Shown piece by piece: positions 13,777-35,469 of a DNA stretch of 64,000 nt. Origin of the DNA: Cytobacillus pseudoceanisediminis (GTDB lineage: Bacteria; Bacillota; Bacilli; Bacillales; Cytobacillaceae); the NCBI RefSeq assembly GCF_023516215.1, contig NZ_CP097349.1:1798001-1862000 (forward strand). Direction: 5' to 3'. Made by a program: the position numbers and the translations under genes. Every line of letters starts with the position of its first letter. The stretch's first letter is position 1. The notes under the pieces are model-generated. The model saw nothing but the letters and a program-made list of their open reading frames with translations. It was not told the DNA's origin and ran no database searches.

Positions 13777-14861
13777 ATGTGGATCAATAAACCATTTTTT
13801 AAATATGCAGCAGGTACTATTTTCGTATTAATCATCATTTTCCTGCTTGGGAAGATTGATTACTTCCTATGGCCAATTCGGGCTTTAGTTGCCACTATTT
13901 TCTTTCCGGTAGTGATCTCCGGTATTCTTTACTATATATTGAGGCCCCTGGTAAGATTGGTTTCCAGGTCTTTACCCAAAACAGCCAGTATTATCGTCAT
14001 TTTTGCCGTTGTGCTGGGTGCAGGGTATTTAGGATTTAACGCAATCGGCAATTTGATTGGCAGCCAGGTTACTGAACTAAGCGAAAACCTGCCGGCAAAG
14101 ATGGAGGATTTATCGGATGAAACGGAGAAAGTGGTTGAAAAAAACAATATGGGCATGTTTTCTTATGACCAAGTCAAAAACAAAGCCTTGAACTTTTTAG
14201 AAACCATCCTATCAGGCGCTGGCGAGAACGTGATGAAAGTCTTCTCCACCATTACAAGCATTGTGACTGTCATGGTTGTGGTGCCGTTTATCCTTTTCTA
14301 CTTCCTTAAGGATGACCATAAGCTTCGGCCTTTTCTGTTAAAATATCTTCCTGATAAACACGAGGAAGAAGGAAATAAAATTCTCGGAGATATTGATAAG
14401 ACCTTATTTTCCTATGTTACCGGCCAGTTTATAGTGGCAGTCGTAGATGGTGTGTTAATGTATTTCGGATATAAGATTATAGGTTTGGAATATGCATTAA
14501 TTTTAGCATTCTTTGCAATGTTCCTTACTGTCGTGCCCTTTCTTGGCCCGGTACTTGGCATCATACCCGCCATTTTCATCGGATTACTGCAAGGCACCGG
14601 AATGGTATTAAAAATAGTACTGGTATTGATCGCTGTTCAGCTGCTTGAAAGTAATCTCGTTTCCCCCATGTGATGGGCAAAAGGCTTAATCTCCATCCCC
14701 TTACAGTTATTATTATCCTAATGGCTGCAGGATCAATTTATGGTTTTATCGGAATCCTCATTGCCATTCCGTTCTATTCCGTCGTTAAGGTACTTGTAAA
14801 AGACTTTAGAAGGTTTTACCGTTTAAGAACGAGGAAAAGCTTGCTTTCAGAAGAAATATAA
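13777..14861 (+). CDS. AI-2E family transporter, frameshifted near 14667
   Basis: Membrane protein of about 361 residues in the AI-2 exporter (YdiK/PerM/TqsA) family. Two N-terminal helix pairs, a periplasmic-like coiled segment (residues 95-150) and a C-terminal group of helices. Signature parts are FILFYFLKDD, YFGYKIIGLEYALILAFFAMFLTVVPFLGPVLG and GRKLNLHPLTVI-type sequence (here MGKRLNLHPLTVII). Translation stops at 14671, but reading the C5 run as C6 joins LVSPHVMGKRLNLHP cleanly. The deletion is likely an error. Homologues export signals or ions; the substrate here is unknown. Confidence 0.85.
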
Positions 14862-19582: not shown

Positions 19583-20467
19583 TTGCTTGCTTCCATCATC
19601 TTTCCTGTAAAAAACGAAGGAATAAACGTAAAGAACACACTTGAATCTTTTTTCTCCGTAGAGATTGGCTCTCCATATGAAATCATTGTTGTAAATGATC
19701 AGTCTGATGATCATTGCTGTGATTTTCTTCGGGATCAGTTTCTGAATAAAAATATCACAGTAGTGAATACATCCGGTGTCGGGGCAGCAAATGCAAGAAA
19801 TGCAGGGGCAGAAAAAGCAAATGGGAGCATTCTTGTGTTTTGTGATGCCCATCTGGAATTTGAAGATTCGTGGCTAGACAGACTGCTTGAACCAATTCTT
19901 GAGGGGACCTGCGATTCCATTACCCCTGCCATTGGCGCTATAGGTAATCCCAATTTTATCGGGTATGGCCAAACACTATGGGTAAATGAAAGATCAAATA
20001 AGTTCAGGACCCACTGGAACACAAAAAGAGATTATCTATTTGAAACCGCCGTTCTGCCAGGCGGATGCTTTGCGATCAGACGGGATGTATTTGAAGATGT
20101 GGGAGGATTTGAAACAGGGTTTCCGACTTGGGGACATGAAGATGTGGAACTTTCTATTAAGCTCTGGTTATTCGGCTACAATTGTTATGTACAGCCAAAG
20201 ACGAAAGTACTGCATTTATTCCGGAAAGTACAGCCCTACAAAATTGAACTGGAAGATTACTACTATAACCTATTAAGACTTGCCTATCTGCATTTTAACC
20301 CCAGCCGCATTCAAAAGATCCGTAAAATGATGATAAAGCATACTAAATCAAAAGATGTTGAAAAAAGAGTGATTCAGAATGGGGCAATGGAGAAGAAACA
20401 GGTTTATTTGAAGAAAAGGAAATTTGATGATGATTGGTATTTTCGGAGGTTTGGGGTTGAGTTTTGA
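19583..20467 (+). CDS. Family 2 glycosyltransferase with a C-terminal galactosyltransferase-like segment
   Basis: Glycosyltransferase of 294 residues with a GT-A fold. The N-terminal nucleotide-binding part is SIIFPVKNEGINVKNTLESF, the metal-binding acidic motif is in ILVFCDAHLEF, and the acceptor region carries GGCFAIRRDVFEDVGGFETGF and WGHEDVELSIKLWLFGY, the Glyco_transf_7C signature. The TTG start at 19583 follows AGGAGTG. No membrane anchor, so it works in the cytosol on a lipid- or protein-linked acceptor. It is the first sugar-transfer gene of the accessory region and its C-terminal half resembles that of the two-domain enzyme at 23360-25843. Confidence 0.88.
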   Translation: MLASIIFPVKNEGINVKNTLESFFSVEIGSPYEIIVVNDQSDDHCCDFLRDQFLNKNITVVNTSGVGAANARNAGAEKANGSILVFCDAHLEFEDSWLDRLLEPILEGTCDSITPAIGAIGNPNFIGYGQTLWVNERSNKFRTHWNTKRDYLFETAVLPGGCFAIRRDVFEDVGGFETGFPTWGHEDVELSIKLWLFGYNCYVQPKTKVLHLFRKVQPYKIELEDYYYNLLRLAYLHFNPSRIQKIRKMMIKHTKSKDVEKRVIQNGAMEKKQVYLKKRKFDDDWYFRRFGVEF

Positions 20468-20558
20468 TAGCATTTATAAAAATTAAAGCAAACAAGGAAC
20501 CAGCCTTCAGCATCAATTAACAGACTCCGAGGATGATTCCTCAAATGAACTCTAAATG

Positions 20559-21721
20559 TTAAACGTTATTGCTAAACCCCTTCCTTAATATATCCGCTAC
20601 TTCAGGCCTTGTAATTTCAGGTGGAAGCTGCTCTCCATTTCTTAGCATCTCCCTAACTTTGGTGCCGCTTAGAAAGAAGCGGTCCTCTTCTAAGTGGGGA
20701 CACGTCTTAGCGGACGCCATATTCATGCATTTTTTACAGTAAAAACTATGTTCAAAAAATAACAGTTTAATTCCAATTTTTTCGGGGTCAAAATTGGAAA
20801 ATATTTTTTGAGCATCATAAGTTCCATAATAATTTCCGACACCTGCATGATCTCTGCCGACAATGAAGTGTGTGCACCCATAATTTTTACGGATAATAGC
20901 GTGATGCACAGCTTCTCTCGGACCTGCATAGCGCATAGCACCTGGAAATACTGCCAGCTTAACTCGATCCATTGGATAATATTTATCAAGCAATACACTA
21001 TAGCTTTCCATTCTGATATCTGCTGGTATATCATCCTTTTTTGTTTCTCCGACAAGGGGATGAAGTAAAAGACCATCTACCATCTCCAATGCACATTTTT
21101 GCAGGTATTCATGGGCCCGATGTACTGGATTACGTGTCTGGAAGCCAACGATAGTACTCCACTTCAAGTCATTGAACATTTTTCTTGTTTCAGCTGGTTC
21201 TTTTAGATAGTCTTCAAAAGGGGCATGTGAAGGCTGATTAATTGCATAAACCGGACCTGCAACATAAATATCCCCCTGGGTATTTAACTTCTTCACACCA
21301 GGATGATTATGATCGTTTGTGCCGTAAACCATCAATGCCTCATATTCTTTGTTGTAACTATATATTTCCTCTATTTTAATTACTCCGTAGGTAATATCAT
21401 CTTTCCCTCTTAGGAGGACTTCATCTCCTATTTCAAGTTGTTCAGCCTCCTCTTTATCAACGGGAAGAGTGATGGGGATTGTCCAAGGAAGACCGCTTGG
21501 GAGATGCATGTTTTCCAAAACACTAAGGTATTCCTTTTGATTCATAAACCCGCGAAGCGGACTGTAACCGCCATTCGTAATCAGTTCAACATCAGATATT
21601 GTCCACTTCGAAATTGAAATATAAGGCATGGAATCTTGTTTTGATAAATATTTTTTCTCTCTCCTTCAGATAACTTGCCATTTACTAAATTTCCACCGTG
21701 GGGGTCAATAATTGAATTCAT
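20559..21721 (-). CDS. sat: Sulfate adenylyltransferase (ATP sulfurylase), frameshifted near 21655
   Basis: Makes adenosine 5'-phosphosulfate (APS) from ATP and sulfate. About 387 residues, the standard length of the Bacillus-type Sat. The catalytic motifs [12 protein letters not shown] and [12 protein letters not shown] are intact, as is the C-terminal Cys-rich [15 protein letters not shown]. The first 22 residues ([20 protein letters not shown]) are in another frame and join at an A6 run (A7 gives [16 protein letters not shown]). The ATG at 21721 has AAGGAGGG. It lies 19 bases after cysC on the same strand. It has no PAPS reductase gene beside it, which fits use of APS/PAPS for sulfation rather than assimilation. 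Confidence 0.93.
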
Positions 21722-21740
21722 TTTTTCCCTCCTTAGCCAT

Positions 21741-22334
21741 TTACAGTAATCTTTTCAGATAATCATAAAGAATTTCTGTACACTCTTTTATCGAATAGTT
21801 AGAAGTCTCTAAGATGATTTCTGGATTCTCAGGCACTTCATAAGGCGAAGAAATCCCCGTAAATTCTTTGATTTCACCATTTTTTGCCCTTTGGTACAAG
21901 CCCTTTGGATCTCTTTTTTCGCACTCTTCCAAAGAGCAATTGACATACACTTCAATAAACTCGTCCTTTTCAACCATATCTCTGACCAGTTTACGCTCTG
22001 AAGCGAATGGTGATATAAAGGTAACCAGAACCACAATTCCGCTATCTACAAATAATTTTGCTACCTCTCCGATTCTGCGAATATTTTCTTTTCGATCTTC
22101 CTGACTGAATCCTAAATCGTTATTCAGTCCCTGCCGAATATTATCTCCATCTAAAATAAAGGTGGAGATACCTTTTGAATGAAGAATGTCTTCCAGTTCA
22201 TTTGCGATGGTTGTTTTACCTGATCCTGATAAACCAGTAAACCAAATAATCTTACTATTATGTCCATGAAGAGCTCTTCTTTTTTCTTTTGTTACTTTAA
22301 ATATAGGAGAATATAAATTCTTGTCTTTTTCCAT
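21741..22334 (-). CDS. cysC: Adenylylsulfate kinase (APS kinase)
   Basis: Phosphorylates APS to the sulfate donor PAPS (3'-phosphoadenylylsulfate). 197 residues, normal for the family. The P-loop is in TGLSGSGKTTIAN, followed by the typical LDGDNIRQGLNNDLGFS, TFISPFASER and the lid region DPKGLYQRAKNGEIKEFTG. Middle gene of a TauE-cysC-sat operon with gaps of 33 and 19 bases. Together with the sulfotransferase gene at 25983-26755 it implies PAPS made for sulfate transfer. Start ATG at 22334 after GGAGGG. Confidence 0.95.
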   Translation of the reverse strand: MEKDKNLYSPIFKVTKEKRRALHGHNSKIIWFTGLSGSGKTTIANELEDILHSKGISTFILDGDNIRQGLNNDLGFSQEDRKENIRRIGEVAKLFVDSGIVVLVTFISPFASERKLVRDMVEKDEFIEVYVNCSLEECEKRDPKGLYQRAKNGEIKEFTGISSPYEVPENPEIILETSNYSIKECTEILYDYLKRLL

Positions 22335-22367
22335 GCCTTCCCTCCTTTTTGTATGACAGAACCTGTA

Positions 22368-23225
22368 TCAGCTCTTATTCTTTTTAATTGTATAAATAAT
22401 GGCTATTATCCAAAGCATAAAAAGACAGGGATATATAAAGTAAGATAATGTAATCCCTATGCCAGATAAATTAATAATGGTATGCAAATTGGTTATAATG
22501 ATCACTCCACCTACTGCGACTCCAAGGAGGTAGGAAGGAAGGATCCTTACGAGCCATGCTGCAATAGGAGCAGCAAACAATCCACCTAGCATTAACGCAA
22601 GAACCCAAAACCAATCAAATTCCTTCCAGCCTAAAGAGATAAGAAACCCTGCCGTTGCTGATAATGCTATTACAAATTCACTCGTATCAACAGTTCCAAT
22701 CACTTTTCTGGGAGCAGTGTCTTTTTGGGCCAGAAGAACAGGTGTTGTAATGGGCCCCCATCCGCCTCCACCGGTAGCGTCAGCGAACCCGCCTAATAGA
22801 CCAAGGATTGCAGCTTTCCTGTTAGATAACTGGATTCCCTTATTCTCATTTGGAATACTATTAAGAAACAAAAAGCGGAATAAGATATAAACTCCCAATA
22901 ACAACAAAAAAACAGATATAAAAGGCCTGACAGCTTCTCCTGGCATGCTGCTTAAAAAGCATGCTCCAATAAATGCCCCTACACCACCGGGTAGAATTAA
23001 TTTCATTACTGTCCCTCTATCTACATTTCCAAACTTAAAATGAAAAAAACCTGAAGCAGCAGTCGTAACCACTTCCGAAATGTGAATACTGGCAGATGCA
23101 ACCGCAGGAGCCATACCTAGCATTAAAAACAAAGAGGAGGATGTAACTCCGTAAGCCATCCCTAGTGATCCGTCAATTAATTGGGCAATGAATCCAACAA
23201 TTGTAACAGTAAGTAATTTTCTCAA
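22368..23225 (-). CDS. TauE/SafE family sulfite/sulfate-type anion transporter
   Basis: Integral membrane protein of 285 residues with about eight helices and the two-repeat layout of the TauE/SafE family (VTIVGFIAQLIDGSLGMAYGV and AAILGLLGGFADATGGGGWGP repeats). The first gene of the TauE-cysC-sat operon, starting at TTG 23225 with GGAG. Members move sulfite, sulfate, sulfoacetate or taurine-derived anions. Here the likely job is sulfate uptake for PAPS synthesis, or export of sulfite. Direction cannot be told from sequence. Confidence 0.88.
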   Translation of the reverse strand: MRKLLTVTIVGFIAQLIDGSLGMAYGVTSSSLFLMLGMAPAVASASIHISEVVTTAASGFFHFKFGNVDRGTVMKLILPGGVGAFIGACFLSSMPGEAVRPFISVFLLLLGVYILFRFLFLNSIPNENKGIQLSNRKAAILGLLGGFADATGGGGWGPITTPVLLAQKDTAPRKVIGTVDTSEFVIALSATAGFLISLGWKEFDWFWVLALMLGGLFAAPIAAWLVRILPSYLLGVAVGGVIIITNLHTIINLSGIGITLSYFIYPCLFMLWIIAIIYTIKKNKS

Positions 23226-23359
23226 TTCTTCTGCTCCAATCTGTTTTTTTATACACGAGGGTATACCTTTATTAGATTCAAAACTCTTGTATCATGAAAC
23301 GGCTAATGCACCAAGGTAAAAGAAAAAAACTGGAAAGCTATATCTTCCCAGAATTTGTT

Positions 23360-25843
23360 TTACATCTTAATAATGTTCTTAAAATTACTTGCAAACGGCT
23401 TAACTTTAGGATACCTTTCTAATTCTTCAAGATTTTTTATAATTTGTTCTTTATTTACTGAACTAGTATTTAGTAAGTTTGTTAATGGTTCTTCTTTCCA
23501 TAGTTTAACAGATATTCTTTGGAGTATTTGCTCTAATAACTTCGGAATTCCTTTATAAATATTTGAATATCCACTTAAAAAGTTCAAGTATGAATCATAA
23601 ATTAAGTGTACATTAGGAACGGATATACCCAAGAAATGCAATATAAAAATCCTTAATTGTACCTCAGGATATTTATTAAACACTCGGACAAAATTTTTAA
23701 TAGCATCTTGAGGATTTGTCTTTGAAATAGGGTGTTCTTGATGATAGGCTGCTAACCCATTATGATTAAAAAATCTATACCCCTTTTTATATAAACGATA
23801 TCCAAGTTCATGATCATCCCAGCCGTATCCTGGGTACTCTTCAAATAGGCCTACTTCCTTAATGGCCTTTGCCTCAACAGAAACATTCCCAGTGCAAAAT
23901 AAGAGCCATGGAAAGTGAAACCCATTCAGATTATTCCCAAAACGATTAAAAAGCGTTTCTTTGTAAACCTTTACGAATGGTTTATCAAATGAATAATTTT
24001 GATATGATTGATTACTAACCTCTTTTTCAGTTAATAGTTTAACAGTCTTACCACTTTTTATCTCATTCAAAGTACTAGGAGTAAAAGTCGGATAGTTTTT
24101 CAACAGCTTCATTATTTGAGTCTTTTGTTCCATGTTGTATCTTGGATGATATATTGTATATAATCCTTTAAGTACCAAGCTTCCACAAATGACTATTTTT
24201 TTGTTCTCCTTATGTCCTTGGTAATGCAGAGAAACAAAGTCAGGCTTAACAATTATCTCTGCATCCAAAAATACAATAACTCGGCCTCCAGCATTCTGAA
24301 TCCCAAGGTTTCTCATACTAGCCCTTCCAATATTTTGGTTGGATCTTATATATTTTAAATCAAATGAAAAATTGTGTTCATTGATTATAGAAGCAGTTTT
24401 GTCAATTGATCCATCATCGACAATAATTACTTCATACTTTTTCTTATCAAAATGCTGGCATTCTAAGGAATGAAGTGTTAACAATAATTCTTGATATTTA
24501 TTAAAGGTCGGCAATATTATACTGACTTCGTAGTCAGATTTCTTCCCATTTTTATAGGCAGACCCGCTTAAAAAGTCATAACCCCACACAATATTTTGAT
24601 TTACATTCATATCTTCCCTCATTAACCGAATTTCTGATTGGTTTGGGGGTACTTTCCAAAGTTTTATTGATTGGATTTTTCCATAGAAACACCCATCTTT
24701 AATGTTGCCGCCAAAAACCAAAGATGGACAAATGTGAGTATATCTGCTTTTTGTCCCCACAGCTACTTCCTTTTCATTAATATACACTGTTGGTGTCTTA
24801 TCTATATAAATAAGGACTACTTTAATCCACTCATTCTGATTTATAGGCAAACTTATAACTGTTTCAACATTATTTTGATATTTTTCAACCACACATAACC
24901 TATTACTTTGGAATAATATACCTGCTACAGCAAAATTTCCTTCAATATTATTTACCTCTGGTGAAATAAGATATGATGCATTTTCATTATTTGACCTTCT
25001 TTGTGGTAAAATCACACATTCATATTTAAAATTATCAATTATTTGCCGAGGGTTAAATTGTGCAGCAATATATTCATTCCCTCTAAAAGTAAATGGAGAG
25101 TTAAACATGTTTCTCTCCTCTCTGTTCTGAAAAAATTTATTATATTTGACTCTATAATTCTCTCTAAGTTCATAGAATTCTTTCATTTGATCTATATTAT
25201 GACGAATTGATCCCATTAAATCATGGACCCGGTAGTTAGTTAAAGTACAATGGAAATAATGAAGAGGAAAATGGGCCGAAGTTCTTATCCAGTAATCATA
25301 GTCTTGTGCATATTTTAAAGTTTCGTCAAAATATCCAATTTTTTCAATAACCTTCCTGGACATCATAACCGTACAACCATTTATAGGATTAAAATCTTTT
25401 AATGATTGTAAGACTTCTATTCCGCTCTTGAAATGTATCCCAACATTATATTTTTTTATCTGATTATGGCTATCGATAATATTAAAATTTGTAAAACTAA
25501 ATAATGATTTATTCTCTTTCATAAAATTAAGCTGTAGTTCGATTTTCTTCTCAGAAAATAAATCATCTGAGCTTAACCAAGCTAGATATTCACCATTAGC
25601 TATCTTGATTCCCTCATTTAAAGCAGACGCAACACCTTTATTTTTTTGTTCTATATATATAATTCTTGATAAGTATGGTTTTAATAATTCATTATACATA
25701 TAGGACCCATCATTAACTAATATAATTTCGATATTCTTGTAAGTTTGTCTTAATACGGTTTCAATTGCCTGGGGAACATATTTACAATTATAAAATGGTA
25801 TTAAAACACTTACTAATGGCAGTTCTTTACTCAAACTTCTCAC
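23360..25843 (-). CDS. Two-domain glycosyltransferase with a central lectin-like (LamG/ConA) insertion
   Basis: Large protein of 827 residues. An N-terminal GT2 domain (about 1-240; [38 protein letters not shown]) is followed at about 250-420 by a beta-rich, LamG/concanavalin-like domain (WIKVVLIYIDKTPTVYINEK, GKIQSIKLWK). A second GT2 domain lies at about 430-700 (VSIILPTFNKYQELLLTLHS, VIVFLDAEIIV, WDDHELGYRLYKKGY). The C-terminal 120 residues are helical. The acidic motif needed for metal is present in both enzyme domains (SSDD and DAE). A single peptide therefore could add two sugars while binding a glycan through the middle domain. AT-rich codon use. Confidence 0.85.
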   Translation of the reverse strand: MRSLSKELPLVSVLIPFYNCKYVPQAIETVLRQTYKNIEIILVNDGSYMYNELLKPYLSRIIYIEQKNKGVASALNEGIKIANGEYLAWLSSDDLFSEKKIELQLNFMKENKSLFSFTNFNIIDSHNQIKKYNVGIHFKSGIEVLQSLKDFNPINGCTVMMSRKVIEKIGYFDETLKYAQDYDYWIRTSAHFPLHYFHCTLTNYRVHDLMGSIRHNIDQMKEFYELRENYRVKYNKFFQNREERNMFNSPFTFRGNEYIAAQFNPRQIIDNFKYECVILPQRRSNNENASYLISPEVNNIEGNFAVAGILFQSNRLCVVEKYQNNVETVISLPINQNEWIKVVLIYIDKTPTVYINEKEVAVGTKSRYTHICPSLVFGGNIKDGCFYGKIQSIKLWKVPPNQSEIRLMREDMNVNQNIVWGYDFLSGSAYKNGKKSDYEVSIILPTFNKYQELLLTLHSLECQHFDKKKYEVIIVDDGSIDKTASIINEHNFSFDLKYIRSNQNIGRASMRNLGIQNAGGRVIVFLDAEIIVKPDFVSLHYQGHKENKKIVICGSLVLKGLYTIYHPRYNMEQKTQIMKLLKNYPTFTPSTLNEIKSGKTVKLLTEKEVSNQSYQNYSFDKPFVKVYKETLFNRFGNNLNGFHFPWLLFCTGNVSVEAKAIKEVGLFEEYPGYGWDDHELGYRLYKKGYRFFNHNGLAAYHQEHPISKTNPQDAIKNFVRVFNKYPEVQLRIFILHFLGISVPNVHLIYDSYLNFLSGYSNIYKGIPKLLEQILQRISVKLWKEEPLTNLLNTSSVNKEQIIKNLEELERYPKVKPFASNFKNIIKM

Positions 25844-25982
25844 TCCTTTGTTCGAAAAATAAAAGATAAATCAGTTTCCATATACTATTTTCAACAACTG
25901 CTAATAAAATCATAGACCTTTTGTGGATTTTTAGATTTGGCCTAATCTTCCTTAGACTCGATCGCAAAATCGGCCATGTAAA

Positions 25983-26755
25983 TCACCAATTATTGTCCTT
26001 TTCATAACCTAGTTTAATGATCAAATCACCAGCTACTTTTTTAAAGTTCGCTTTATTTCTAGATGTAAATTCTTCACGCCACCCTCCAAATTTGCCTTGT
26101 CTATATGTCCATGAGTTTTTAGTATCAATGTTGTTTTTCATTATTTTTAAGAATTCACTTTTACTTATGTTTAGGTTTCTTAGATCTTCCCATAAAAAAT
26201 TTATTATTTTTAATATTTCAGTATCTGCAGTTAAATTATTTACTAGATCTTCGTAACGTATGCAGCACACGCTGGGATCTTTACGCCATTCATAAATTTT
26301 ATAAGTTTCCTCATAAATGCCTGGATAATGTTTCTTAACCCCCACTTATTTTCATTTTCTTCACCAATCAGATCTACTCCAAGAATGACAGCATCTAATT
26401 GATCTTCAAATAAGGTAATTCTCTTTTTAAAAACTTGATGAAGAGGATGATCAAAAAATACATCATTAATAAAGTAAACCATTGAAACAGCAACATCTCT
26501 TAAGTCTCTGTAAATGAATATCTGATTTATTGACATACTTTGAAGTCCGCTTGAAAATTTTTCATTATATGGCAGGTGACTATAGACCAATTCACCTTCC
26601 TTAATACTTAATACATCATTTTCATTGTTTACCCAATATGATTTACCTTGATATAATTTAGTTATGCCTTTTACTAATTGTATTACTAAATTAGTACTGC
26701 TTTTTGGGACAGAGTTAATAAATATCTTAGGTTGTTTAAAAGATTTGTTTTGCAC
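25983..26755 (-). CDS. PAPS-dependent sulfotransferase, frameshifted near 26345
   Basis: Cytosolic sulfotransferase of about 257 residues that would transfer a sulfuryl group from PAPS to an acceptor hydroxyl. The 5'-phosphosulfate loop is FINSVPKSSTNLVIQLVKG, the 3'-phosphate site is IYRDLRDVAVSMV, and the end carries RQGKFGGWREEFT, a typical C-terminal motif. The frame breaks at a G5 run; reading G6 gives NKWGVKKHYPGIYEETYKIYEWR, as expected. It lies among glycosyltransferases, so a glycan or glycoprotein is the likely acceptor. The gene is AT-rich, like its neighbours. Confidence 0.87.
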
Positions 26756-27151
26756 TTTTTCACTCCTATTTAATGTTTTTATGATAGTAATTTAATCTCT
26801 TCTAATACAAATTCTTTCATAGTTAAAACGCCATGTTACATTCAAACAATCTTTCCACACAAATCTCCCTCGATAATTACTTAATACGGAAATGAAAATT
26901 AAATTTAAATACCCTTCAACCTGTCTTTTATAAGTTATGTCTAATTCTTATTCTTGCTATAGGCTAGTTTTATAGAATTATTCTTTATATTTACAAAATC
27001 CTCTTTTGCCTAGCCATGATCAATATTTTCAATCCTGAATTGATTTGAAAAGCAAAAAAATTTATTTAAAGCAGGCATAAATTAATGTCACAAAATATTT
27101 TTTCAATTAGAAAGTTTATTAATATAGGATATACCGGCAAAAGATCTAGCT
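26756..27151. other. AT-rich intergenic spacer
   Basis: About 395 bases of very AT-rich sequence. I see no ORF with a ribosome binding site and no conserved motif. It may be the promoter area of the sulfotransferase gene or degraded sequence. Confidence 0.5.
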
Positions 27152-27184
27152 AAAAAAACAGCAGCTTGTCTATAGAAGCTACTG
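27152..27184 (-). terminator. Rho-independent terminator of the glycosyltransferase at 27197-27908
   Basis: Nine-base stem (CAGTAGCTT with AAGCTGCTG, one G-U pair) followed by seven T on the minus strand. Confidence 0.75.
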
Positions 27185-27196
27185 TAAAGTAATTAA

Positions 27197-27908
27197 TTAT
27201 TTTTCTTTTAAATATTTCTCCAGTTCTGTTTTATATTTTAGTTTTACTTTCCTTGATTCCTTCAACACATCATTTAAATATTGTTTACTTCCCATTTTCC
27301 CATGAACTCTATACAATGTGAGTGGAATATTTAAATGCCCTATTTTAAATTTTAGAAACACCCTAATCCAATAATCATAGTCATTGGCATATCTCAGTGA
27401 TTCATCAAAAAGCCCAATACTTTTAGTAACCTCTCTCCGCATCATAATAGTGGAACCGTTTATCGGGCAGCCTACTATTAGGCTTTTTAGGAGCTCTTCA
27501 GAGTTTAAAGGACCAACAGAATCAGATATTATTCGATTCTTTTCATTAATGCAAAAGTAATTGGTATAAGAAAACATATACATTTTGTTTTTCATAAAAT
27601 CTAATTGTGTTTCGACTTTTGTATTAATAAATAAATCATCTGAACTCAACCATACAATATATTCTCCCTTTGAATTCCTTATTCCCTCATTTAATGCTGA
27701 AGCAGTTCCACCATTTTTTTCTTATATAGAAGATCTTGTCCTTAAGTGGTTTTATCATTGGTATATGAGAAGTTGATCCGTCATCCACCACAATAACTTC
27801 AATATTTCTATAAGTTTGTTTTAATGCACTAGAAATTGCTCTCTGGACATATTTACAATTATAGAATGGAATAATAATAGAAACTAAAGGATATTCATTT
27901 AATTCCAC
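27197..27908 (-). CDS. Family 2 glycosyltransferase, paralogue of the N-terminal domain of the 23360-25843 protein, frameshifted
   Basis: GT-A glycosyltransferase of about 237 residues. It begins [17 protein letters not shown], has [21 protein letters not shown] and DYDYWIRV and matches the N-terminal domain of the two-domain enzyme (shared [24 protein letters not shown] motifs). The frame is lost at an A7 run near 27718; reading A8 gives [17 protein letters not shown]. Start ATG at 27908 follows GAGGTG. It lies 21 bases downstream of the DUF4915 gene, so the two are probably cotranscribed. Confidence 0.84.
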
Positions 27909-27928
27909 AATCTTTCACCTCTTTGTAA

Positions 27929-28747
27929 TCAGATAAAAATAATTCCATATATTTCCAAGGAGGGGATCGGCACAAAAGTTGAAAGTTTATTATTCATATT
28001 TAATAAATAGACTCCACAGTCTGAAGAAATATTAGGATGCTTTTCTAATAATTTATTTATATGTCTAGTTATACTTTGGCCAATTAGAACCGTTTCATTC
28101 TGAACAGCTAGACCTCTCGTATAACCAAGACATTTAAATAATATATTATTTTCTTTACGTACAGAGAATTCTTCCGAATTACAAAAATACAGATCATTTT
28201 TATATAACATAACACTATGAGGCTGAGATATTCCTTCATATAGAACATTCTTAACTTTCTTCTTTTTTAAAGAATATTCAACTACCCCGCCTCCAATATT
28301 AAATTGGCCAGGTAAATGAAACATTGATACAAAAAGACTATTTTCTTCAATAAATATATCATTAATATGGCAAATATCTGTTGCTCTGTTGGAAGAAAAG
28401 CAAATCTCATCGACTCTGTTTAATCCATTTGATAAATCATATATGCCAATACAATTAAGCTTAGTTTCTGCTAAATAAGCAAAATCTCCACTAATAGCTA
28501 TTCCATGCAGATCTAATCCTTTTCCTGCATGGCTAAAATTTACAACATTTAAACTTTCATCCAATAGAATAATTCCTTCCTCATTTGATGCAACAACAAA
28601 TCCCTTACCATATCTAGCTATTCCTCTGCATTCAATATCTAATATTATTTGAAGTGTATTCATTCCTTTTTGGCGTTTCAGATGGTATAGTCCCCCATTT
28701 TGGTTACAGCAGCTTATCAGTGCATTAAAATCTTTAACTTGTAACAT
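27929..28747 (-). CDS. DUF4915-like beta-propeller protein
   Basis: A 272-residue protein with repeated beta-strand pattern, probably a seven-bladed propeller (IARYGKGFVVASNEEGIILLDES, LDLHGIAISGDFAYLAET, ICHINDIFIEENSLFVSMF, SQPHSVMLYKNDLYFCNS). The ending SLEIYGIIFI resembles the DUF4915 family, seen next to glycosyltransferases. Start is taken at ATG 28747 (GGAGTG upstream); a TTG at 28756 overlaps the ribosome site. It may bind a glycan or glycoprotein. I cannot assign a reaction. Divergent from the GT4 gene with a 170-base gap. Confidence 0.68.
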   Translation of the reverse strand: MLQVKDFNALISCCNQNGGLYHLKRQKGMNTLQIILDIECRGIARYGKGFVVASNEEGIILLDESLNVVNFSHAGKGLDLHGIAISGDFAYLAETKLNCIGIYDLSNGLNRVDEICFSSNRATDICHINDIFIEENSLFVSMFHLPGQFNIGGGVVEYSLKKKKVKNVLYEGISQPHSVMLYKNDLYFCNSEEFSVRKENNILFKCLGYTRGLAVQNETVLIGQSITRHINKLLEKHPNISSDCGVYLLNMNNKLSTFVPIPSLEIYGIIFI

Positions 28748-28804
28748 ATACAACACTCCAACAATTTTAACTATGTTTTAGTTACTTTTATTTTCTTAGT
28801 AAAC

Positions 28805-28840
28805 AAAACACCTTTCAAGGTATTTTATGCATATATAATA
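28805..28840 (+). promoter_or_regulatory. Candidate SigK-type promoter for the GT4 gene
   Basis: A CACC box at 28809 and CATATATAA at 28830 with 17 bases between fit the mother-cell SigK pattern (mACm, 16-17, CATAnnnTA). A vegetative TATAAT overlaps it, and the region is AT-rich, so this is weak. Confidence 0.25.
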
Positions 28841-28916
28841 ATGAGTGCGCAATATATTAATCATAGGATTAAAATATTTGGAAATAAACTTATTCAAATA
28901 AATCGAGGTGGAATTA

Positions 28917-30020
28917 TTGGACTTATCTAAAAAAACCGGAGCAGGCGGAATTAAAGTTTTATTTACGTATTATATTCCCAGTGGAGGTATCGAGACACTA
29001 AATAGACAGCGTTTTTATGCTCTAAGTAAAGCAGGAGTTACCTGTCACTTTTTGTATAAACAACATGGAACCGGATTACAGAATATGTTAAAACCAGTTT
29101 TTGTTCTTGATAAAGAAGAACTTATCAGGGAGTTAGTTATTCGTGAAAAGTATGATGCTATAGTAGTGGCATCAGATCTTCAAATGCTTGAGAATTTAAA
29201 GAAATGGGGAATTAAAAGTACATTAATCTATGAAGTTCAAGGACTTGGCTTCTATAAAGAATATGCAGAAAAATTCATTAAAACTCAAGCTTATGATATT
29301 ATTAATAATTTTGCTGATGGAATTTTATACCCTAGAACGCCTCATTTAATAAAAGCTTTTGAAAAATATTTTCCCAATAAAAAAAAATTTTGCTTTCACA
29401 ATTGCTTTAACTCAAAAAGTTTTCATTATAAGAAACTGCCTGCTCCTAAGAACCCTATCCTTGGCTGGGTTGGAAGGATAGAAGAAAATAAAAATTGGAG
29501 GGATTTTTTAACAATAGGGTCAAAGTTAAGTGAATCTATCCCCAATATCCAAATGTGGATGTTTGAAGACAATACTCTTTCAAAACCTGAATCAAGAAAA
29601 GAATTTGAAAATATGGTATCTTCCCTCAAACTGAATAACAGATTAACAATCTACCCTAATCAACCTCATAGTAAGATGGCAGACTACTTTTCAATGATCG
29701 GGGATTCTGGTGGCCTGTTATGCTCTACCTCAAAAGTTGAGGGTTTTGGATACGCAGTTCTTGAAGCTATGATTTGTAGATGTCCTGTCCTTACAACAGA
29801 TTCAGATGGAGTCCGAAGCTTTATTGTTCATAACCATACAGGAAAATATTATAAACAGGGAGATATCAATCATGCTATCCAGGAAGCTAAAATATTACTA
29901 ACAAACATTCCTATTAGAAATGAAATAAGAAGAAATGGAGTAGCACATATTGAAAAAATATTTTCGCCTGAAATTTATGCTGCTAATTTTCTGAATATGC
30001 TTATTACATTAAAAGAATAA
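28917..30020 (+). CDS. Family 4 glycosyltransferase
   Basis: GT-B fold transferase of about 368 residues. The acceptor-side start is VLFTYYIPSGGIETLNRQRF. The donor domain has GWVGRIEENKNWRDFLTIG and the E-x7-E motif EGFGYAVLEAMICRCPVL that binds nucleotide sugar. The TTG start at 28917 is preferred since GAGGTGG lies five bases before it, while GTG at 28908 overlaps that site. Faces the DUF4915 and GT2 genes across a divergent promoter. It is likely to extend or branch the same glycan. Intact, AT-rich. Confidence 0.85.
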   Translation: MDLSKKTGAGGIKVLFTYYIPSGGIETLNRQRFYALSKAGVTCHFLYKQHGTGLQNMLKPVFVLDKEELIRELVIREKYDAIVVASDLQMLENLKKWGIKSTLIYEVQGLGFYKEYAEKFIKTQAYDIINNFADGILYPRTPHLIKAFEKYFPNKKKFCFHNCFNSKSFHYKKLPAPKNPILGWVGRIEENKNWRDFLTIGSKLSESIPNIQMWMFEDNTLSKPESRKEFENMVSSLKLNNRLTIYPNQPHSKMADYFSMIGDSGGLLCSTSKVEGFGYAVLEAMICRCPVLTTDSDGVRSFIVHNHTGKYYKQGDINHAIQEAKILLTNIPIRNEIRRNGVAHIEKIFSPEIYAANFLNMLITLKE

Positions 30021-30211
30021 AAATAATTTCAACCATTACATTCTTCAACCACTAGCTTTTTATAGGATTTGTATTATTTTGTTAGTTTCATAGCTGTGTT
30101 TACATTTTAAACTAATGATTTTACTTTTAAATTATAAATGGCAGCCATTCAAAAGATCGTAAATCAAGAACATTTTAATATCTCATCTAAGTTAATCTGT
30201 AAATTTCTAAT

Positions 30212-30243
30212 AGAAGAAACCCATTTTAATAAGGGTTTCTTCT
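30212..30243 (-). terminator. Terminator hairpin at the end of the sugar reductase fusion gene
   Basis: Eleven-base stem AGAAGAAACCC with GGGTTTCTTCT. The stop codon of the gene (30226-30228) lies in its loop. Confidence 0.6.
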
Positions 30244-31950
30244 ATAATATTTAAGATTATCCTCAAGTGATTTTTTAAAAGAGATAATTGGTTTCCACCC
30301 CAATTGGTTTATTCTTTCAGATGATATCTTAACTTTATCTTCTCTAATGCTCCTTTCAGATATTTTAACTTTAAAGTTAATGGGTGTCATCGTTTTAAAT
30401 ATTTTTACAACTTCCCCTAATGAGCGGCTTTTTCCTGATGAAATTGGATAAATTTCTTTACTTACCCCGTTCTTTAAAAGAATTTCATAAGCTCTGACGG
30501 CATCTCGAACGTCTATGAAGTCACGCTGAGCGTACAGATTGTTCACATTAAGAATATGTTCTGCTTTTTGGCTTTCCATTTCAGCAATCTTTTTTGCAAA
30601 CATAGAACATACCCCGTTTGAATTGCCTGGACCTATTAAATTCGTTGGTTGGGCAATGACAATCGAAAGGCCATAAAGTTCTGCCCAAGCTCTGGCAGCT
30701 AGCACTTGAAATGTTTTACTGAGACTATATGGATGGGTAATTGCAGAGATATTGGAAGGGTCGATTTGAAGAGCGGATCCTACTATGACAGACTTTGATT
30801 CAGGGCATTCTTTATGGATAGCATCCAGTATATATACAGTTGAAAGCAGATTGGTTTCCAACGTTCCTGTTGGATCGGACCATGATTGACCAACATGGTT
30901 TTGACCGGCCAAATGCAACAGATATTGCGGTTTTACTTTCTTTATTAAATTTAGCACCAATTCTTTGTTATGAAGATCGCATTGTTCTACCATAACATTA
31001 TCAATAGCAATATCCTTACTTCTTGTAACAGCAGTTACCTCATATCCGGCAGATGCAAAATACCTGCAGGAATGGAGGCCAGTAAATCCAGCTGCACCAG
31101 TAATTAATATTTTAGACTTCCCGCTCACTTTTTTCATCCAGTCTCTAAGTTCCAATAGCATTTCCTTATAAGGCGGGACTTGATACTTCCAATCACTTCT
31201 TGTATTTATAATGGTTCTATCCTGTTTAATTTCGCTATCAGGCTGAATGACAACATCTCTTTTATTAAATATCTCTTTAATTAACATCAGCAAATTATAT
31301 TTTGAAATTTTTTCATCACAAGATAAATGATAAAGTCCCGTTATATTCTGCTTAATCATCCAATCGATTGCCTTTGCCAATTCAAGAGTAGTAACACCAT
31401 TCCAATAAACTTCCTTATATCCCTTTATGTTCCCTTTTTGCTTCATGAACCACAAAAATAATCCGATCCCACTTCCTTTTAATTCAGGGCCTATTATAGA
31501 AGTCCGAATGGTCAAATGTGTATCACTGATGATTTCTCCAAGCTGTTTTGATTCAGCATAAACAGAAGTCCCATCTGGTATATCATTTTCAGAATAATTC
31601 CCTTTCGTCCCTAAAAATACACAATCAGTGCTAATGTGAATTACCTTCCCATTGTATCTCTCTGCAAATTTGACTAATTGATGGGGAAGCAAACTATTAA
31701 CCTGAAAGGCTAGCTTTTGGTTTTTTTCTGCAAATTCGTTCAATATTCCAATACAATTAATTATTACATCGGGCTTTTGCTTATTAATTACGTCCTCAAG
31801 CTTTAAAGAATCTGTGATATCAAGATAAATTCCATCTTCATCTTCTTTATTCCTTGAAGTATAAATGACATTATATTGTGGCTGCCTCTGAAGATAATCT
31901 ACTATCATATGGCCTGCCATCCCTTTTCCTCCAAGGACTAATACCTTCAT
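30226..31950 (-). CDS. Fused nucleotide-sugar reductases: RmlD-like domain plus GMD/RMD-like SDR domain
   Basis: A 574-residue protein of two extended SDR domains. Residues 1-272 are RmlD-like (VLVLGGKGMAGHMIV, YAESK catalytic pair, HISTDCVFLG, RTSIIG). After a short linker, residues 277-574 form another SDR (ILITGAAGFTGLHSCRYF, YSLSK, LNVNNLYAQRDFIDVRDAV) like GDP-4-keto-6-deoxymannose reductases. It follows the 4,6-dehydratase gene by one base, in a tight three-gene operon. The first domain matches the position of WbvR/CapF-type reductases in UDP-L-QuiNAc or L-FucNAc synthesis, without the CapF cupin tail. The second domain may reduce another intermediate. Intact. Confidence 0.84.
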   Translation of the reverse strand: MKVLVLGGKGMAGHMIVDYLQRQPQYNVIYTSRNKEDEDGIYLDITDSLKLEDVINKQKPDVIINCIGILNEFAEKNQKLAFQVNSLLPHQLVKFAERYNGKVIHISTDCVFLGTKGNYSENDIPDGTSVYAESKQLGEIISDTHLTIRTSIIGPELKGSGIGLFLWFMKQKGNIKGYKEVYWNGVTTLELAKAIDWMIKQNITGLYHLSCDEKISKYNLLMLIKEIFNKRDVVIQPDSEIKQDRTIINTRSDWKYQVPPYKEMLLELRDWMKKVSGKSKILITGAAGFTGLHSCRYFASAGYEVTAVTRSKDIAIDNVMVEQCDLHNKELVLNLIKKVKPQYLLHLAGQNHVGQSWSDPTGTLETNLLSTVYILDAIHKECPESKSVIVGSALQIDPSNISAITHPYSLSKTFQVLAARAWAELYGLSIVIAQPTNLIGPGNSNGVCSMFAKKIAEMESQKAEHILNVNNLYAQRDFIDVRDAVRAYEILLKNGVSKEIYPISSGKSRSLGEVVKIFKTMTPINFKVKISERSIREDKVKISSERINQLGWKPIISFKKSLEDNLKYYRRNPY

Positions 31951-32937
31951 TTATATAAACCTGCCTTTCTTTAAAACTTTCCTGATTTCATCCGTGCTCA
32001 TTAGGTCTTTGCTGGAATTATAATTTATTAGATTAACCGGTTTATAATTTGCATATTTTTCCTTCAAGCCATCAATATGAATACTTGGCAATATAACAAA
32101 ATACTCTTCATCATAAGCAATTGTTGTTTCACTTTCATACTCTGAAAGCAGAAGTTCATGAATCTTCTCTCCTGGTCGAACACCCAGAATCTCAACATCG
32201 ATTCCTTTTTTGCCCATATCCTCAGATAAAACATGTGCAAGATCCAGGATTTTACATGCTGGCATCTTCATGACAAAAATCTCCCCGCCCAAACTTTCAA
32301 AAGTGGCCTTAAAAACCAGTTTGATAGCTTCTTCAATTGTTAAGAAAAATCTTGTCATCTCTGGATCAGTAATGCCAATCCTGCCTTTTTCTATTATCTG
32401 TTTCTTAAAGACATGAATCACGCTTCCATTTGTTCCAAGAACATTCCCGCCTCTTATGCAAACAAATTTTGTGTCAGTGTTAAGTGTATTTGCATGGATG
32501 ATTAGCCTTTCTCCCATCGCTTTAGATAATCCATAAAAATTTGATGGATTTGCCGCTTTATCCGTGGAAATGTATACGACTCTTTTTACCTTGTTATGAA
32601 TCGCAGCTTCAATTACATTCTGGGTACCGTGAACATTTGTCTTTAATGCTTCTAGGGGCTGATATTCACATACAGGAACATGCTTCAGAGCAGCAAGGTG
32701 AAAAACATAATCAACACCCTCAGATGCTTCCATGATAATTTCTTTTTCTTTAATATCTCCGATCACAAAATGAAGCAGCGGGTTATTGTCAAATTCTTGC
32801 TTCATCGAAAATTGGTTAGATTCGTTCCTGGAAAAAATTCTTATCTCCTTAGGCTTATAATCTAAAAGCTGCCTAACGAGTTCATAGCCCCATGATCCCG
32901 TTCCTCCAGTAATTAGAATTGTCTGGTTCTTAAACAA
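31951..32937 (-). CDS. capE: UDP-GlcNAc 4,6-dehydratase/5-epimerase-type SDR (CapE/FnlA/WbjB family)
   Basis: Extended SDR of 328 residues that would convert UDP-GlcNAc to a 4-keto-6-deoxy sugar with C5 inversion. The NAD(P) site is ITGGTGSWGYELVRQLL, followed by FHLAALKHVPVCEYQPLEA, YISTDKAANPSNFYGLSK (catalytic Tyr and Lys) and GGEIFVMKMPAC. Length and the soluble form (no membrane domain) match CapE/FlaA1-like enzymes. It overlaps the 2-epimerase gene by eight bases and ends one base before the reductase fusion. This gene order is typical for UDP-L-FucNAc/QuiNAc operons. Confidence 0.9.
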   Translation of the reverse strand: MFKNQTILITGGTGSWGYELVRQLLDYKPKEIRIFSRNESNQFSMKQEFDNNPLLHFVIGDIKEKEIIMEASEGVDYVFHLAALKHVPVCEYQPLEALKTNVHGTQNVIEAAIHNKVKRVVYISTDKAANPSNFYGLSKAMGERLIIHANTLNTDTKFVCIRGGNVLGTNGSVIHVFKKQIIEKGRIGITDPEMTRFFLTIEEAIKLVFKATFESLGGEIFVMKMPACKILDLAHVLSEDMGKKGIDVEILGVRPGEKIHELLLSEYESETTIAYDEEYFVILPSIHIDGLKEKYANYKPVNLINYNSSKDLMSTDEIRKVLKKGRFI

Positions 32938-34030
32938 CTTCCATGCCTCCCATCAATAATTTCACCACTTTATCAGAAACACCTGTCTCGCCATATCCCT
33001 CAGGCAAAGACCAGTCTCTTTCTCCTTTTAGCATGACATTTACACAATTCAATATCTTTCCCGAGTCTATACCTGATAGAACATTGCTTCCGCAATCAAT
33101 TGTTTCAGGTCTTTCCGTTGTCCGCCGTACTGTAACCGTTGGCACCCGAAAAATACAGCACTCTTCCTGGACAGTTCCACTATCCGTTAAGACACATAAC
33201 GCCTTTTGCTCCAATTGAACAAAATCAAAGAAACCAAAGGGTTCATGAAATTCAACAAAGGTATTAAGCGTAAATGAATCAAGCTTTTGAAGCTTTGATC
33301 TTGTGCGGGGGTGAATACTGCAGATGATTCTTTTTCGATAAATCTCTGCCACCCTGTTGATTCCATTCATAATTTCTCTTAGGTGGCATAAATTATCTAC
33401 ATTCTCAGCCCTGTGAATAGTTACTAAGAAATATTCTTCCTGCTGTAGACCAAGCGTCTTAATTATCTGACTCTGATCAATACTTGTTTTGTAAGCACTT
33501 AATACTTCTTTTATTGGGTTCCCGGAAAGGATGATTCTGTTTTTTGGAAATCCTTCTTTCATTAAATTTTCTTTACTTTGTGGTGTATAAGGCAGATTAA
33601 AGCTAGCAATAGCATCAATTACTTTTCGGTTCTTTTCTTCAGGAACGTTCAAATCGAAGCAACGATTCCCGGCTTCCATATGAATAACCGGGATTCCCAT
33701 TCTTTCAGCCAATATTGCGCTTAATCCACTATTTGTATCTCCCAGTACCAAAACCTTATCCGGCTTTTCTTTTAGAAGGATATTTTCTAATTGATTAAAC
33801 ATATTTCCAAGCTGGCCACCTAAAGTGGCCTGTTTTTTCGATAAGATATAATCCGGTTCCCTGATCTTTAATTCCCGAAAAAACAAGTCGCTTAATGATT
33901 CAGTAAAGTTTTGGCCGGTATGGACAAGTATGTGTTTTGAGGCTAATAAATCAAGCTTTTTAATAATAAGGCTAAGACGGATTATTTCTGGTCTTGTCCC
34001 CAAAATTGTCATAATTCTCACTTTGTGCAC
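32930..34030 (-). CDS. capG: Non-hydrolysing UDP-GlcNAc 2-epimerase-type enzyme (WecB/CapG/FnlC family)
   Basis: Cytosolic 2-epimerase of 366 residues with a GT-B-like fold. Conserved parts are TILGTRPEIIRLSLIIK, GDTNSGLSAILAERMGIPVIHMEAGNR, SIHPRTRSKL and TDSGTVQEECC, the last holding the UDP-binding Ser and Glu. In the FnlC/WbvD role it inverts C2 of the deoxy sugar made by its neighbours; a WecB role (UDP-ManNAc) is the alternative. First gene of the three-gene sugar operon with a clear AAGGAGTG before the ATG at 34030. Confidence 0.88.
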   Translation of the reverse strand: MHKVRIMTILGTRPEIIRLSLIIKKLDLLASKHILVHTGQNFTESLSDLFFRELKIREPDYILSKKQATLGGQLGNMFNQLENILLKEKPDKVLVLGDTNSGLSAILAERMGIPVIHMEAGNRCFDLNVPEEKNRKVIDAIASFNLPYTPQSKENLMKEGFPKNRIILSGNPIKEVLSAYKTSIDQSQIIKTLGLQQEEYFLVTIHRAENVDNLCHLREIMNGINRVAEIYRKRIICSIHPRTRSKLQKLDSFTLNTFVEFHEPFGFFDFVQLEQKALCVLTDSGTVQEECCIFRVPTVTVRRTTERPETIDCGSNVLSGIDSGKILNCVNVMLKGERDWSLPEGYGETGVSDKVVKLLMGGMEVV

Positions 34031-34151
34031 TCCTTTCTGCTAAAATCATTATTTCAATTCGTCCCTATTAACCTATTCATATATCTTTAATTTGAATAGG
34101 TTTGTATCATTCATTTAAGTTAATTTTTTTGCTGCCAAAACGGATTCTTTG

Positions 34152-34175
34152 AAAAAAAGAAGGGTTGCCCCTTCT
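34152..34175 (-). terminator. Rho-independent terminator of the Cys-rich protein gene
   Basis: Stem AGAAGGG with CCCTTCT followed by seven T on the minus strand, about 30 bases past the stop. Confidence 0.85.
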
Positions 34176-34206
34176 AATCATAGCTATTTAACATTTATAC
34201 TTGGGA

Positions 34207-35433
34207 TTAGTCATCTAGTAAGTTAGGAAAAGTAACACAATCCTGTACAACTAAATCTTCATCTGGTACAAAATCTACTGCAGCAGCAGCAAAAGTTATC
34301 AGAGCTGTTCCAGCAAGATCAGTAAGGGTAATGGCATATGTGTCATCAGCTGATCCGATATTTTCTACTAATGTCAATGTGAACAATACAGTCCGGTCAG
34401 CAACTCCAGGGTCTGCAAAGCTTACTGTACCTGCCCCTTCAACAGTCATCGTTGTTACCCCAAGAACCTCTGTACATTCCGGCATTCCAATTTCTGAAGC
34501 AGTAAACGTAAAGCTTTGATCTACAGTACCTGTTCCTGTTCCTGTTGGAACAACGAAATCTTCGACAATCCAGGAAATAGTGCTCCCAGTTAATTGACAG
34601 TTATCGCAAATCTCAGCATTAAGTTCCGTAGTATAAGTTCCTGCAGCTAACGGTGTATCAAAAAGAATTGGTGCGAAGGTAATATCAACTGGACCAGTCA
34701 ATGGATCTGTATCCACAAACGCCTGGCAATCACAGTTGTCGCGAGGGAAGAAGTCACATTGTGCAGGCCATTCGAATTCCGGACATACGCCGTTAGTAGG
34801 AAGTTCAATGTCATTTGGACGCGGGAAGCAGAATTTAGCAAGTACTTCTAGTTTTACATCTGCTTCTACTTGAATCTCGAAACAGATATCCAGCATAACC
34901 TGAAGGCCAAGGTCTGGGTCTCCAGTTTCGATGAAGTTAGTGTCACAGTCTAGTGAAATTAAACGGCAGAACACGTTATCAGCTGTAAACGGTTCTGGAG
35001 CACAAACAACTAAACGGCGGGATTCACTGATAGTAGGACGGAATTGGCAAATGATAGCACCTGTGCTATCAAAGATTGTAATTAGCGGTCTAATAGTGAA
35101 AATGACTTTTACAATGGCCACTTCTACTAGTCTGCCGCCTAGCGGAATTTCACGTCTTTCAATTCTGGAAGAAACTGTACACAATGCGTTTCCATCCGTA
35201 TCTGGAGGATCAAGCGGGAAGAAGCCTCCTACATCTGGAACTTCGCATGTTACATCTAGCGGTGTTCTTCCTGCTGCAACCGCTGCAGCAACTGCAGCTG
35301 CGCAATCATCCGGCAAGGTTATACCTGTATCGGTAGAAATAGCATCAAAAACCCAGTCATAAACCTTGGATACCCGAATACATTCTTCTTGAACGTTATT
35401 AGGAGTCAATTGGGATCCTCTAATAGGTTTCAA
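34207..35433 (-). CDS. Cys-rich secreted-type structural protein of unknown family, probable spore surface component
   Basis: A 408-residue protein without signal peptide. TTG at 35433 is the better start, with AAAGGA eight bases before it; the ATG at 35442 abuts that site. It begins with CIRVSKVYDWVFDAI, a motif I associate with Bacillus/Clostridium spore-surface proteins, though not with certainty. Cys residues are scattered in pairs (CDCQAF, CDNCQL, CVTF) and the rest is beta-strand and Thr/Val/Asp rich, with a repetitive tail of 30-residue strands. It reads like a disulfide-linked coat or exosporium protein. Base use is less AT-rich than the flanking glycan genes. Function is unproven. 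Confidence 0.6.
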   Translation of the reverse strand: MKPIRGSQLTPNNVQEECIRVSKVYDWVFDAISTDTGITLPDDCAAAVAAAVAAGRTPLDVTCEVPDVGGFFPLDPPDTDGNALCTVSSRIERREIPLGGRLVEVAIVKVIFTIRPLITIFDSTGAIICQFRPTISESRRLVVCAPEPFTADNVFCRLISLDCDTNFIETGDPDLGLQVMLDICFEIQVEADVKLEVLAKFCFPRPNDIELPTNGVCPEFEWPAQCDFFPRDNCDCQAFVDTDPLTGPVDITFAPILFDTPLAAGTYTTELNAEICDNCQLTGSTISWIVEDFVVPTGTGTGTVDQSFTFTASEIGMPECTEVLGVTTMTVEGAGTVSFADPGVADRTVLFTLTLVENIGSADDTYAITLTDLAGTALITFAAAAVDFVPDEDLVVQDCVTFPNLLDD

Positions 35434-35469
35434 GCAAATCATCCTTTCTAATAGGTTGTGTTTTCACTT

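Follow-up and report, generated by a model that had tools for sequence, protein, structure and literature searches.

In Sinorhizobium, a second ATP sulfurylase/adenosine 5'-phosphosulfate (APS) kinase set, NodPQ, is kept together with NodH, a sulfotransferase (ST) acting on a sugar product, the Nod factor, which is a secreted signal of growing cells. The ST RaxST of Xanthomonas also has its own genes for making 3'-phosphoadenosine 5'-phosphosulfate (PAPS), those of RaxP and RaxQ, and sulfates a peptide tyrosine. Here we describe a locus of Cytobacillus pseudoceanisediminis in which an ATP sulfurylase (Sat), an APS kinase (CysC), a PAPS ST, glycosyltransferases (GTs) and nucleotide-sugar enzymes are encoded next to a spore coat protein. 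The locus lies in a stretch of 64,000 nucleotides (assembly GCF_023516215.1, contig NZ_CP097349.1, positions 1,798,001 to 1,862,000), hereafter the window. NodPQ-NodH is the nearest described principle, as it joins a dedicated PAPS supply to a glycan ST, and some entries among our CysC matches are in fact named NodQ; the locus described here differs in its separate Sat and CysC proteins, its TauE transporter and its spore-coat setting. RaxST differs in its acceptor, which is a peptide tyrosine and not a spore glycan.

Two loci of Bacillus subtilis are also comparable. The yitBA-yisZ set includes a PAPS reductase and is accompanied by ComA, whereas the Cytobacillus locus has an ST, no reductase and no ComA. 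In the part of the source available, yitBA-yisZ and yitCD form a second, late-sporulation sulfate-activation set, and the sps operon is a mother-cell locus for a spore-coat polysaccharide (PMC517825). The likeness to sps lies in such a mother-cell locus for a coat polysaccharide; the same part of the source mentions neither ST nor PAPS genes for sps. In Priestia megaterium, according to the accessible portions of two papers, the outermost spore proteins include BMQ_0737 (PMC4656864), and strain QM B1551 needs genes of plasmids pBM500 and pBM600 to assemble its exosporium or keep it stable (PMC4674009). An ST and spore-coat genes are found on plasmids of other P. megaterium strains, yet sulfation is unmentioned in those portions of the two papers and the stem "sulf" is absent from the available text of PMC4674009.

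The gene set is real and recurrent, and the best reading of it, which we consider likely, is the sulfation of a spore-surface glycan with a PAPS supply of its own. The features of the locus, in window coordinates, are the following.

19583..20467, plus strand: GT2 glycosyltransferase, GT2a (PF00535, 6.8e-26), retained beside the locus in genomes G003 and G045
20559..21629, minus strand: sat, ATP sulfurylase (PF01747, 1.1e-98; NF003166, 550.8 bits, cut-off 387)
21741..22334, minus strand: cysC, APS kinase (PF01583, 5.5e-70; TIGR00455, 270 bits, cut-off 138.7)
22368..23225, minus strand: TauE/SafE-family transporter, putative sulfate importer (PF01925, 2.3e-39)
23360..25843, minus strand: GT2 and LamG-like plus GT2 in one open reading frame (ORF) of 827 aa (PF00535, two stretches)
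25983..26345, minus strand: C-terminal half of the ST, in a second frame (PF00685, 1e-5, profile positions 146-248)
26243..26755, minus strand: N-terminal half of the ST with the motifs PKSSTN, SHLPY and YRDLRDVAVS (PF00685, 2.2e-6)
27197..27907, minus strand: GT2 glycosyltransferase, GT2b, in two frames in the window (one ORF at 27197-27649) and a single ORF of 237 aa in C. oceanisediminis 2691
27929..28756, minus strand: DUF4915/TIGR03032-like protein (PF16261, 1.6e-14, 54.3 bits, cut-off 35)
28821..28846, minus strand: candidate sigma-K-type promoter match, 8 of 8 consensus positions, 90 bp upstream of the DUF4915 gene, suggestive only
28908..30020, plus strand: GT4 glycosyltransferase (PF00534, 4.6e-22)
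30226..31950, minus strand: RmlD-type reductase plus GDP-6-deoxy-4-keto-hexose reductase-like protein in one ORF of 574 aa (PF04321 and PF01370)
31951..32937, minus strand: CapE/FlaA1-type UDP-GlcNAc 4,6-dehydratase (PF02719, 2.1e-100; structures 2gn4, 1.1e-74, and CapE 3vvb, 3.7e-66)
32930..34030, minus strand: CapG/WecB-type nucleotide-sugar 2-epimerase (PF02350, 6.6e-90; CapG 7ya2, 1.1e-99)
34207..35442, minus strand: BMQ_0737-family morphogenetic spore coat protein (NF052457, 116.1 bits, cut-off 71)
35597..36781, plus strand: conserved neighbour of the coat gene without Pfam or NCBIfam match; G003, G045 and L008 have a homologue adjoining the locus

ORF and Pfam scans placed the TauE-cysC-sat genes, the five GT domains and the three nucleotide-sugar ORFs (30226-34030) where the first-pass annotation of this DNA had put them. 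They also bore out its AT-rich segment: the GC content is 0.29-0.34 across 24-32 kb (minimum 0.286 at 26-28 kb) versus 0.35-0.43 in the rest of the window. The intact PAPS ST that it described stood in part, as both motifs are present in the DNA but are spread over two frames instead of a single ORF, and the spore-coat gene at 34207-35442, where the locus ends, had been overlooked. Gene content and much of the gene order recur in other genera, so that the region is more than a chance assembly. The sat ORF of the window starts later than the corresponding gene of strain 2691 (387 aa).

The linkage between the PAPS supply and the ST was examined in 193 genomes of the family, searched with PF00685, PF13469 or our own ST alignment. 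STs of families PF03567 and PF06990, which are present in sister loci, fall outside this count. An ST match was found in 25 genomes, below the curated cut-off in three of them (G024, G061 and G156). On the same contig, a CysC gene lies within 35 kb of the ST in 20 of the 25 (0.62 expected), within 12 kb in 14 (0.21 expected) and within 5 kb in 8 (0.09 expected); these expectations, like the one for the coat gene below, assume uniform placement and treat the genomes as independent despite their relatedness, which tempers the contrast. The 35-kb limit is less telling than the two shorter ones because G035, G037, G044, G046, G053, G054 and G060 carry two CysC genes about 21-35 kb apart. The ST was present in 20 of the 73 genomes with two or more CysC genes versus 5 of the 120 with fewer, and the single CysC of G148 is 2.5 kb away from an ST match with an internal stop and 4.4 kb from an open one. 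CysC positions were compiled for the ST genomes. The first-pass annotation had called for such a comparison and had named as its refutation an ST separate from sat/cysC in every relative, which does not hold. Three genomes have CysC within an open frame of 586-593 aa that shares its contig with an ST (G132:C31:41601, G133:C21:32509 and G143:C2:194089), so that CysC may be fused to another enzyme there.

The host genome (5.69 Mb) has two CysC genes. The second belongs to a cysH-PiT-sat-cysC-sumT operon (L076) of ordinary assimilation, and Sat, APS kinase and ST are therefore linked in the locus apart from the housekeeping copy. The ORFs of the window locus that were scanned include no cysH (PAPS reductase), and a second cysteine-synthesis operon was rejected since cysH sits in the other operon, outside this set. 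Judged by gene content, the PAPS set of the locus serves neither cysteine synthesis nor the sulfolactate pathway. The transporter varies, being TauE in some loci and Na_sulph_symp/CitMHS in G053, with a relative of the latter adjoining cysC in G054; such differing types fit a role in sulfate uptake. A PHP phosphatase of a high-scoring type lies within 10 kb of CysC in nine of the ten genomes that have it, one copy with an internal stop. Its best-fitting model is that of the 3',5'-nucleoside bisphosphate phosphatase, whose 400-bit cut-off it does not reach, and it could remove the by-product 3'-phosphoadenosine 5'-phosphate (PAP). In sister loci, of which 76 chosen ORFs across seven loci were scanned, CysC is found near STs of several Pfam families, PF03567 and PF06990 included. 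Rows of four related genes were seen near ST-cysC-sat loci (L028 3661-9463 and L020 2221-8006); one of them, L020 6693-8006, scanned singly, is of the YheC/D ATP-grasp type.

The two halves of the ST in the window score 27.7 and 25.5 bits with PF00685 and the intact copy of strain 2691 scores 45.3, all above the curated cut-off of 22. We aligned 31 ST sequences from Cytobacillus, Peribacillus, Ectobacillus, Halalkalibacter and others, among them four P. megaterium plasmid copies and all 11 class-level rows, the latter taken by BLAST; some rows nearly duplicate others (L006 and P0005, 97%). Residues P17, K18, S19, H60, R83, S91, R219, G221 and W226 are unchanged in all 31, T21 is present in 29 and G224 in 30. 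We take PKS to be the 5'-phosphosulfate loop, the histidine to be the catalytic base and the arginine and serine to contact the 3'-phosphate, followed by a C-terminal RxGxxGxW. Positions 8-235 of 251 in a 21-row ST profile, which includes two PF13469-type STs, align with PAPS STs whose structures are solved (best E value 4.4e-17). Structure prediction from seven sequences was poor (mean pLDDT 62.2), and no fold claim is based on it. Genome G286 encodes a natural fusion of 680 aa (L037 250-2292) with a GT2 domain at the N-terminus and the ST at the C-terminus, which points to a sugar as the sulfate acceptor. Among the phage records, none carries the ST.

A BMQ_0737-type coat gene (NF052457) occurs in 36 of the 193 family genomes. 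Twelve genomes have both this gene and the ST, and in 11 of them the two are at most 25 kb apart (0.14 expected). Among the sister loci devoid of a BMQ_0737-type gene, G113 and G148 contain YheCD-type ATP-grasp genes and G046 a CsxC-family gene, and CsxC is named in the accessible part of work on the spore surface proteins of C. sporogenes (PMC4942563). The ST was also found on six plasmid records, all of P. megaterium, two of which carry cysC. Gene content was inspected in five of the six, H3 being excluded: all five have a wecB-CapE-SDR-epimerase set, and on four of them annotated spore-coat genes are found at a distance of 8-19 kb from it. P. megaterium ST plasmids also have, immediately ahead of wecB, a 21.5-kb gene (NZ_CP085418.1, 16859-38338; L077 1-14358) annotated as a carboxypeptidase regulatory-like domain protein, whose product could be a giant spore-surface carrier. 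Another P. megaterium plasmid, NZ_CP085448.1, carries the sugar set together with DUF4915, cysC and TauE (L082 6372-10761), and this arrangement suggests that DUF4915 may have a role in the sulfate step.

The TauE protein is the sole member of the set with several membrane segments predicted by simple hydropathy. By the same measure no flippase, polymerase or exporter is visible, neither of the Wzx/Wzy nor of the ABC capsule type, as would suit synthesis of the product in the cytoplasm of the mother cell. Because a coat gene belongs to the set and P. megaterium plasmids carry the ST with spore-coat genes, the sulfated surface is most likely that of the spore. Promoters were scanned with a sigma-K consensus. 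There are five full matches in the whole window on both strands. Of 33 upstream stretches, 3 have a full match: those of DUF4915 in the window and L007 and that of tauE in L006. Since shuffled controls reach the full score in 6 of 280 cases, this promoter evidence is weak, and we did not accept it as proof.

That the ST and GT2b are split in the window is probably an error of sequencing or assembly. The locus is near-identical in C. oceanisediminis 2691 (G048), which aligns with the window in two pieces of 27,549 aligned bases, an IS element of 2691 falling uncounted between them. The two differ by 64 substitutions and 14 small indels, and each of the 14 indels leaves the window shorter; 13 lie in homopolymer runs of at least five. 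Given this single direction and the homopolymeric context, the two apparent fusions are probably errors as well. Strain 2691 encodes the ST (257 aa) and GT2b (237 aa) each in one ORF; there the 827-aa double GT corresponds to two overlapping genes, as it does in L006, and the 574-aa ORF to two overlapping genes for an RmlD-type and a second reductase (nearest solved chains 2ggs and 2pk3). A natural double GT and a natural RmlD-epimerase fusion were thus rejected as run-length artefacts. Phase variation was not favoured as the cause of the frame split either, since the indels all go one way and extend outside the locus. One-way indels were noted throughout 9347-36890 of the window, for instance near the end of a transporter ORF at 13777-14673. 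The protein cluster P0002 (12 member sequences) is an intact ST close to that of strain 2691.

We propose that a mother-cell locus equips the outermost layer of the spore with a sulfated glycan, as follows. TauE would import sulfate, and Sat and CysC, whose families are assigned by profile, would convert it to PAPS. The 6-deoxy (amino) sugars would be supplied by enzymes also placed by profile, namely those resembling CapG, CapE and RmlD and the second reductase. The CapG, CapE and RmlD-type set suggests a UDP-6-deoxy-L-amino sugar, presumably of the FucNAc or QuiNAc type; a GDP-6-deoxyhexose is suggested by the second reductase. The glycan would be assembled in the cytoplasm by GT2 and GT4 enzymes, and the PF00685 ST would transfer sulfate from PAPS to a sugar hydroxyl. 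Linkage suggests that the glycan would then be put on a coat or exosporium built around the BMQ_0737-family protein; as such a product would never cross a membrane, no exporter is expected. The earlier proposal, synthesis and sulfation of a surface glycan by this region, is accordingly supported, by genome comparison only.

The gene set extends beyond the family. The ST was detected in 15 of 398 genomes of the class, this one included, and the flanks of the 14 others contain CysC in six and the CapG-CapE-RmlD set in five, although five of these flanks are shortened by contig ends or by the extent taken. Among distant loci, L006 and L007 have CysC, and L006, L007 and L008 the sugar set. In G045, which is closely related and belongs to the same genus, sat, cysC and TauE are retained together with the sugar and coat genes.

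Several observations count against a sulfated spore glycan or against its generality. The frame of the ST is broken in the window assembly, and the PHP phosphatase of sister loci has no counterpart in the window locus. In strain 2691 DUF4915 is interrupted by an IS21-type insertion, the window copy being intact; two ORFs of 2691 inside DUF4915 (L016 8563-10811) were named by eye as resembling an istA/istB pair. G024, G040, G061, G156 and G191 have an ST without CysC within 35 kb. CysC was not found in the fetched flanks of 8 of the 14 class-level genomes, some on short contigs, nor within 20.7 kb in L008, nor on four of the six ST plasmids at an E limit of 1e-60, and the ST was not found on plasmid NZ_CP085448.1. 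G045 has no detectable ST in its locus, where only the end of one GT gene remains, and no PF00685 or PF13469 match in its genome; we read this as a deletion, and the PAPS supply can therefore outlive the ST. Finally, a BMQ_0737-type coat gene is missing from 13 of the 25 genomes with an ST.

This last count, and the fact that CapG/CapE-type sugar genes also occur as capsule genes, would agree with a sulfated capsule or exopolysaccharide of the growing cell beside which the spore-coat neighbours are incidental. We regard this as unlikely, given the lack of visible Wzx/Wzy or ABC export in a set where only TauE is a multi-membrane protein, the proximity of ST and coat gene in 11 of the 12 genomes with both, the P. 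megaterium plasmids on which spore-coat genes lie less than 20 kb from the ST, and the CsxC and YheCD families in some sister loci. It is quite improbable that TauE-cysC-sat is a second sulfate-assimilation or sulfolactate set placed by chance beside a glycan locus. The persistence of the set in G045 without an ST would suit such an arrangement, as would the 53 genomes, out of the 73 with at least two CysC genes, in which none of our three ST searches gave a match. There is also the precedent of the late-sporulation yitBA-yisZ and yitCD genes of B. subtilis, inferred in the part of PMC517825 available to be phosphosulfolactate makers. Against this, the set lacks the cysH that is found in an operon elsewhere in the genome, CysC accompanies STs of several Pfam families in other loci, and ComA (PF02679, E limit 1e-10) was absent from all 13 searched genomes of the genus, the host and 12 others; the sulfolactate pathway was rejected for the host genome on this last ground. 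That the module is decaying, with the ST a true pseudogene and nothing sulfated in this strain, has very little probability in our view. The split ST and GT2 gene of the window, the insertion in DUF4915 of strain 2691 and the loss of the ST region in G045 could all be taken as signs of decay. However, the window is the shorter sequence at every small indel, nearly always in homopolymers, both split genes are intact in strain 2691, and the ST genes of 2691 and L006 differ with a dN of 0.25 versus a saturated dS of 3.0 (NG86).

We therefore keep to sulfation of a spore-surface glycan. As to its wider extent, we lean somewhat towards the view that endospores of scattered Bacillaceae bear sulfated outermost glycans, and thus a heparin-like anionic surface, by means of a mobile, sometimes plasmid-borne mother-cell cassette with a sulfate-activation cycle. 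The cycle would comprise the importer, Sat, CysC, STs and, in sister loci, the PAP-type phosphatase. Sulfated glycans are well known from animals, some marine bacteria and rhizobial signals. No description of them on Bacillaceae spores was found in the titles and abstract openings searched, which covered few subscription papers, and the one mention in a paper on Bacillaceae concerns GlpE, not a PAPS enzyme (PMC10978704). If the proposal is true, it would explain the second PAPS set of some genomes, and it would be a new spore-surface chemistry that could set charge, metal binding, adhesion and contact with clay or a host.

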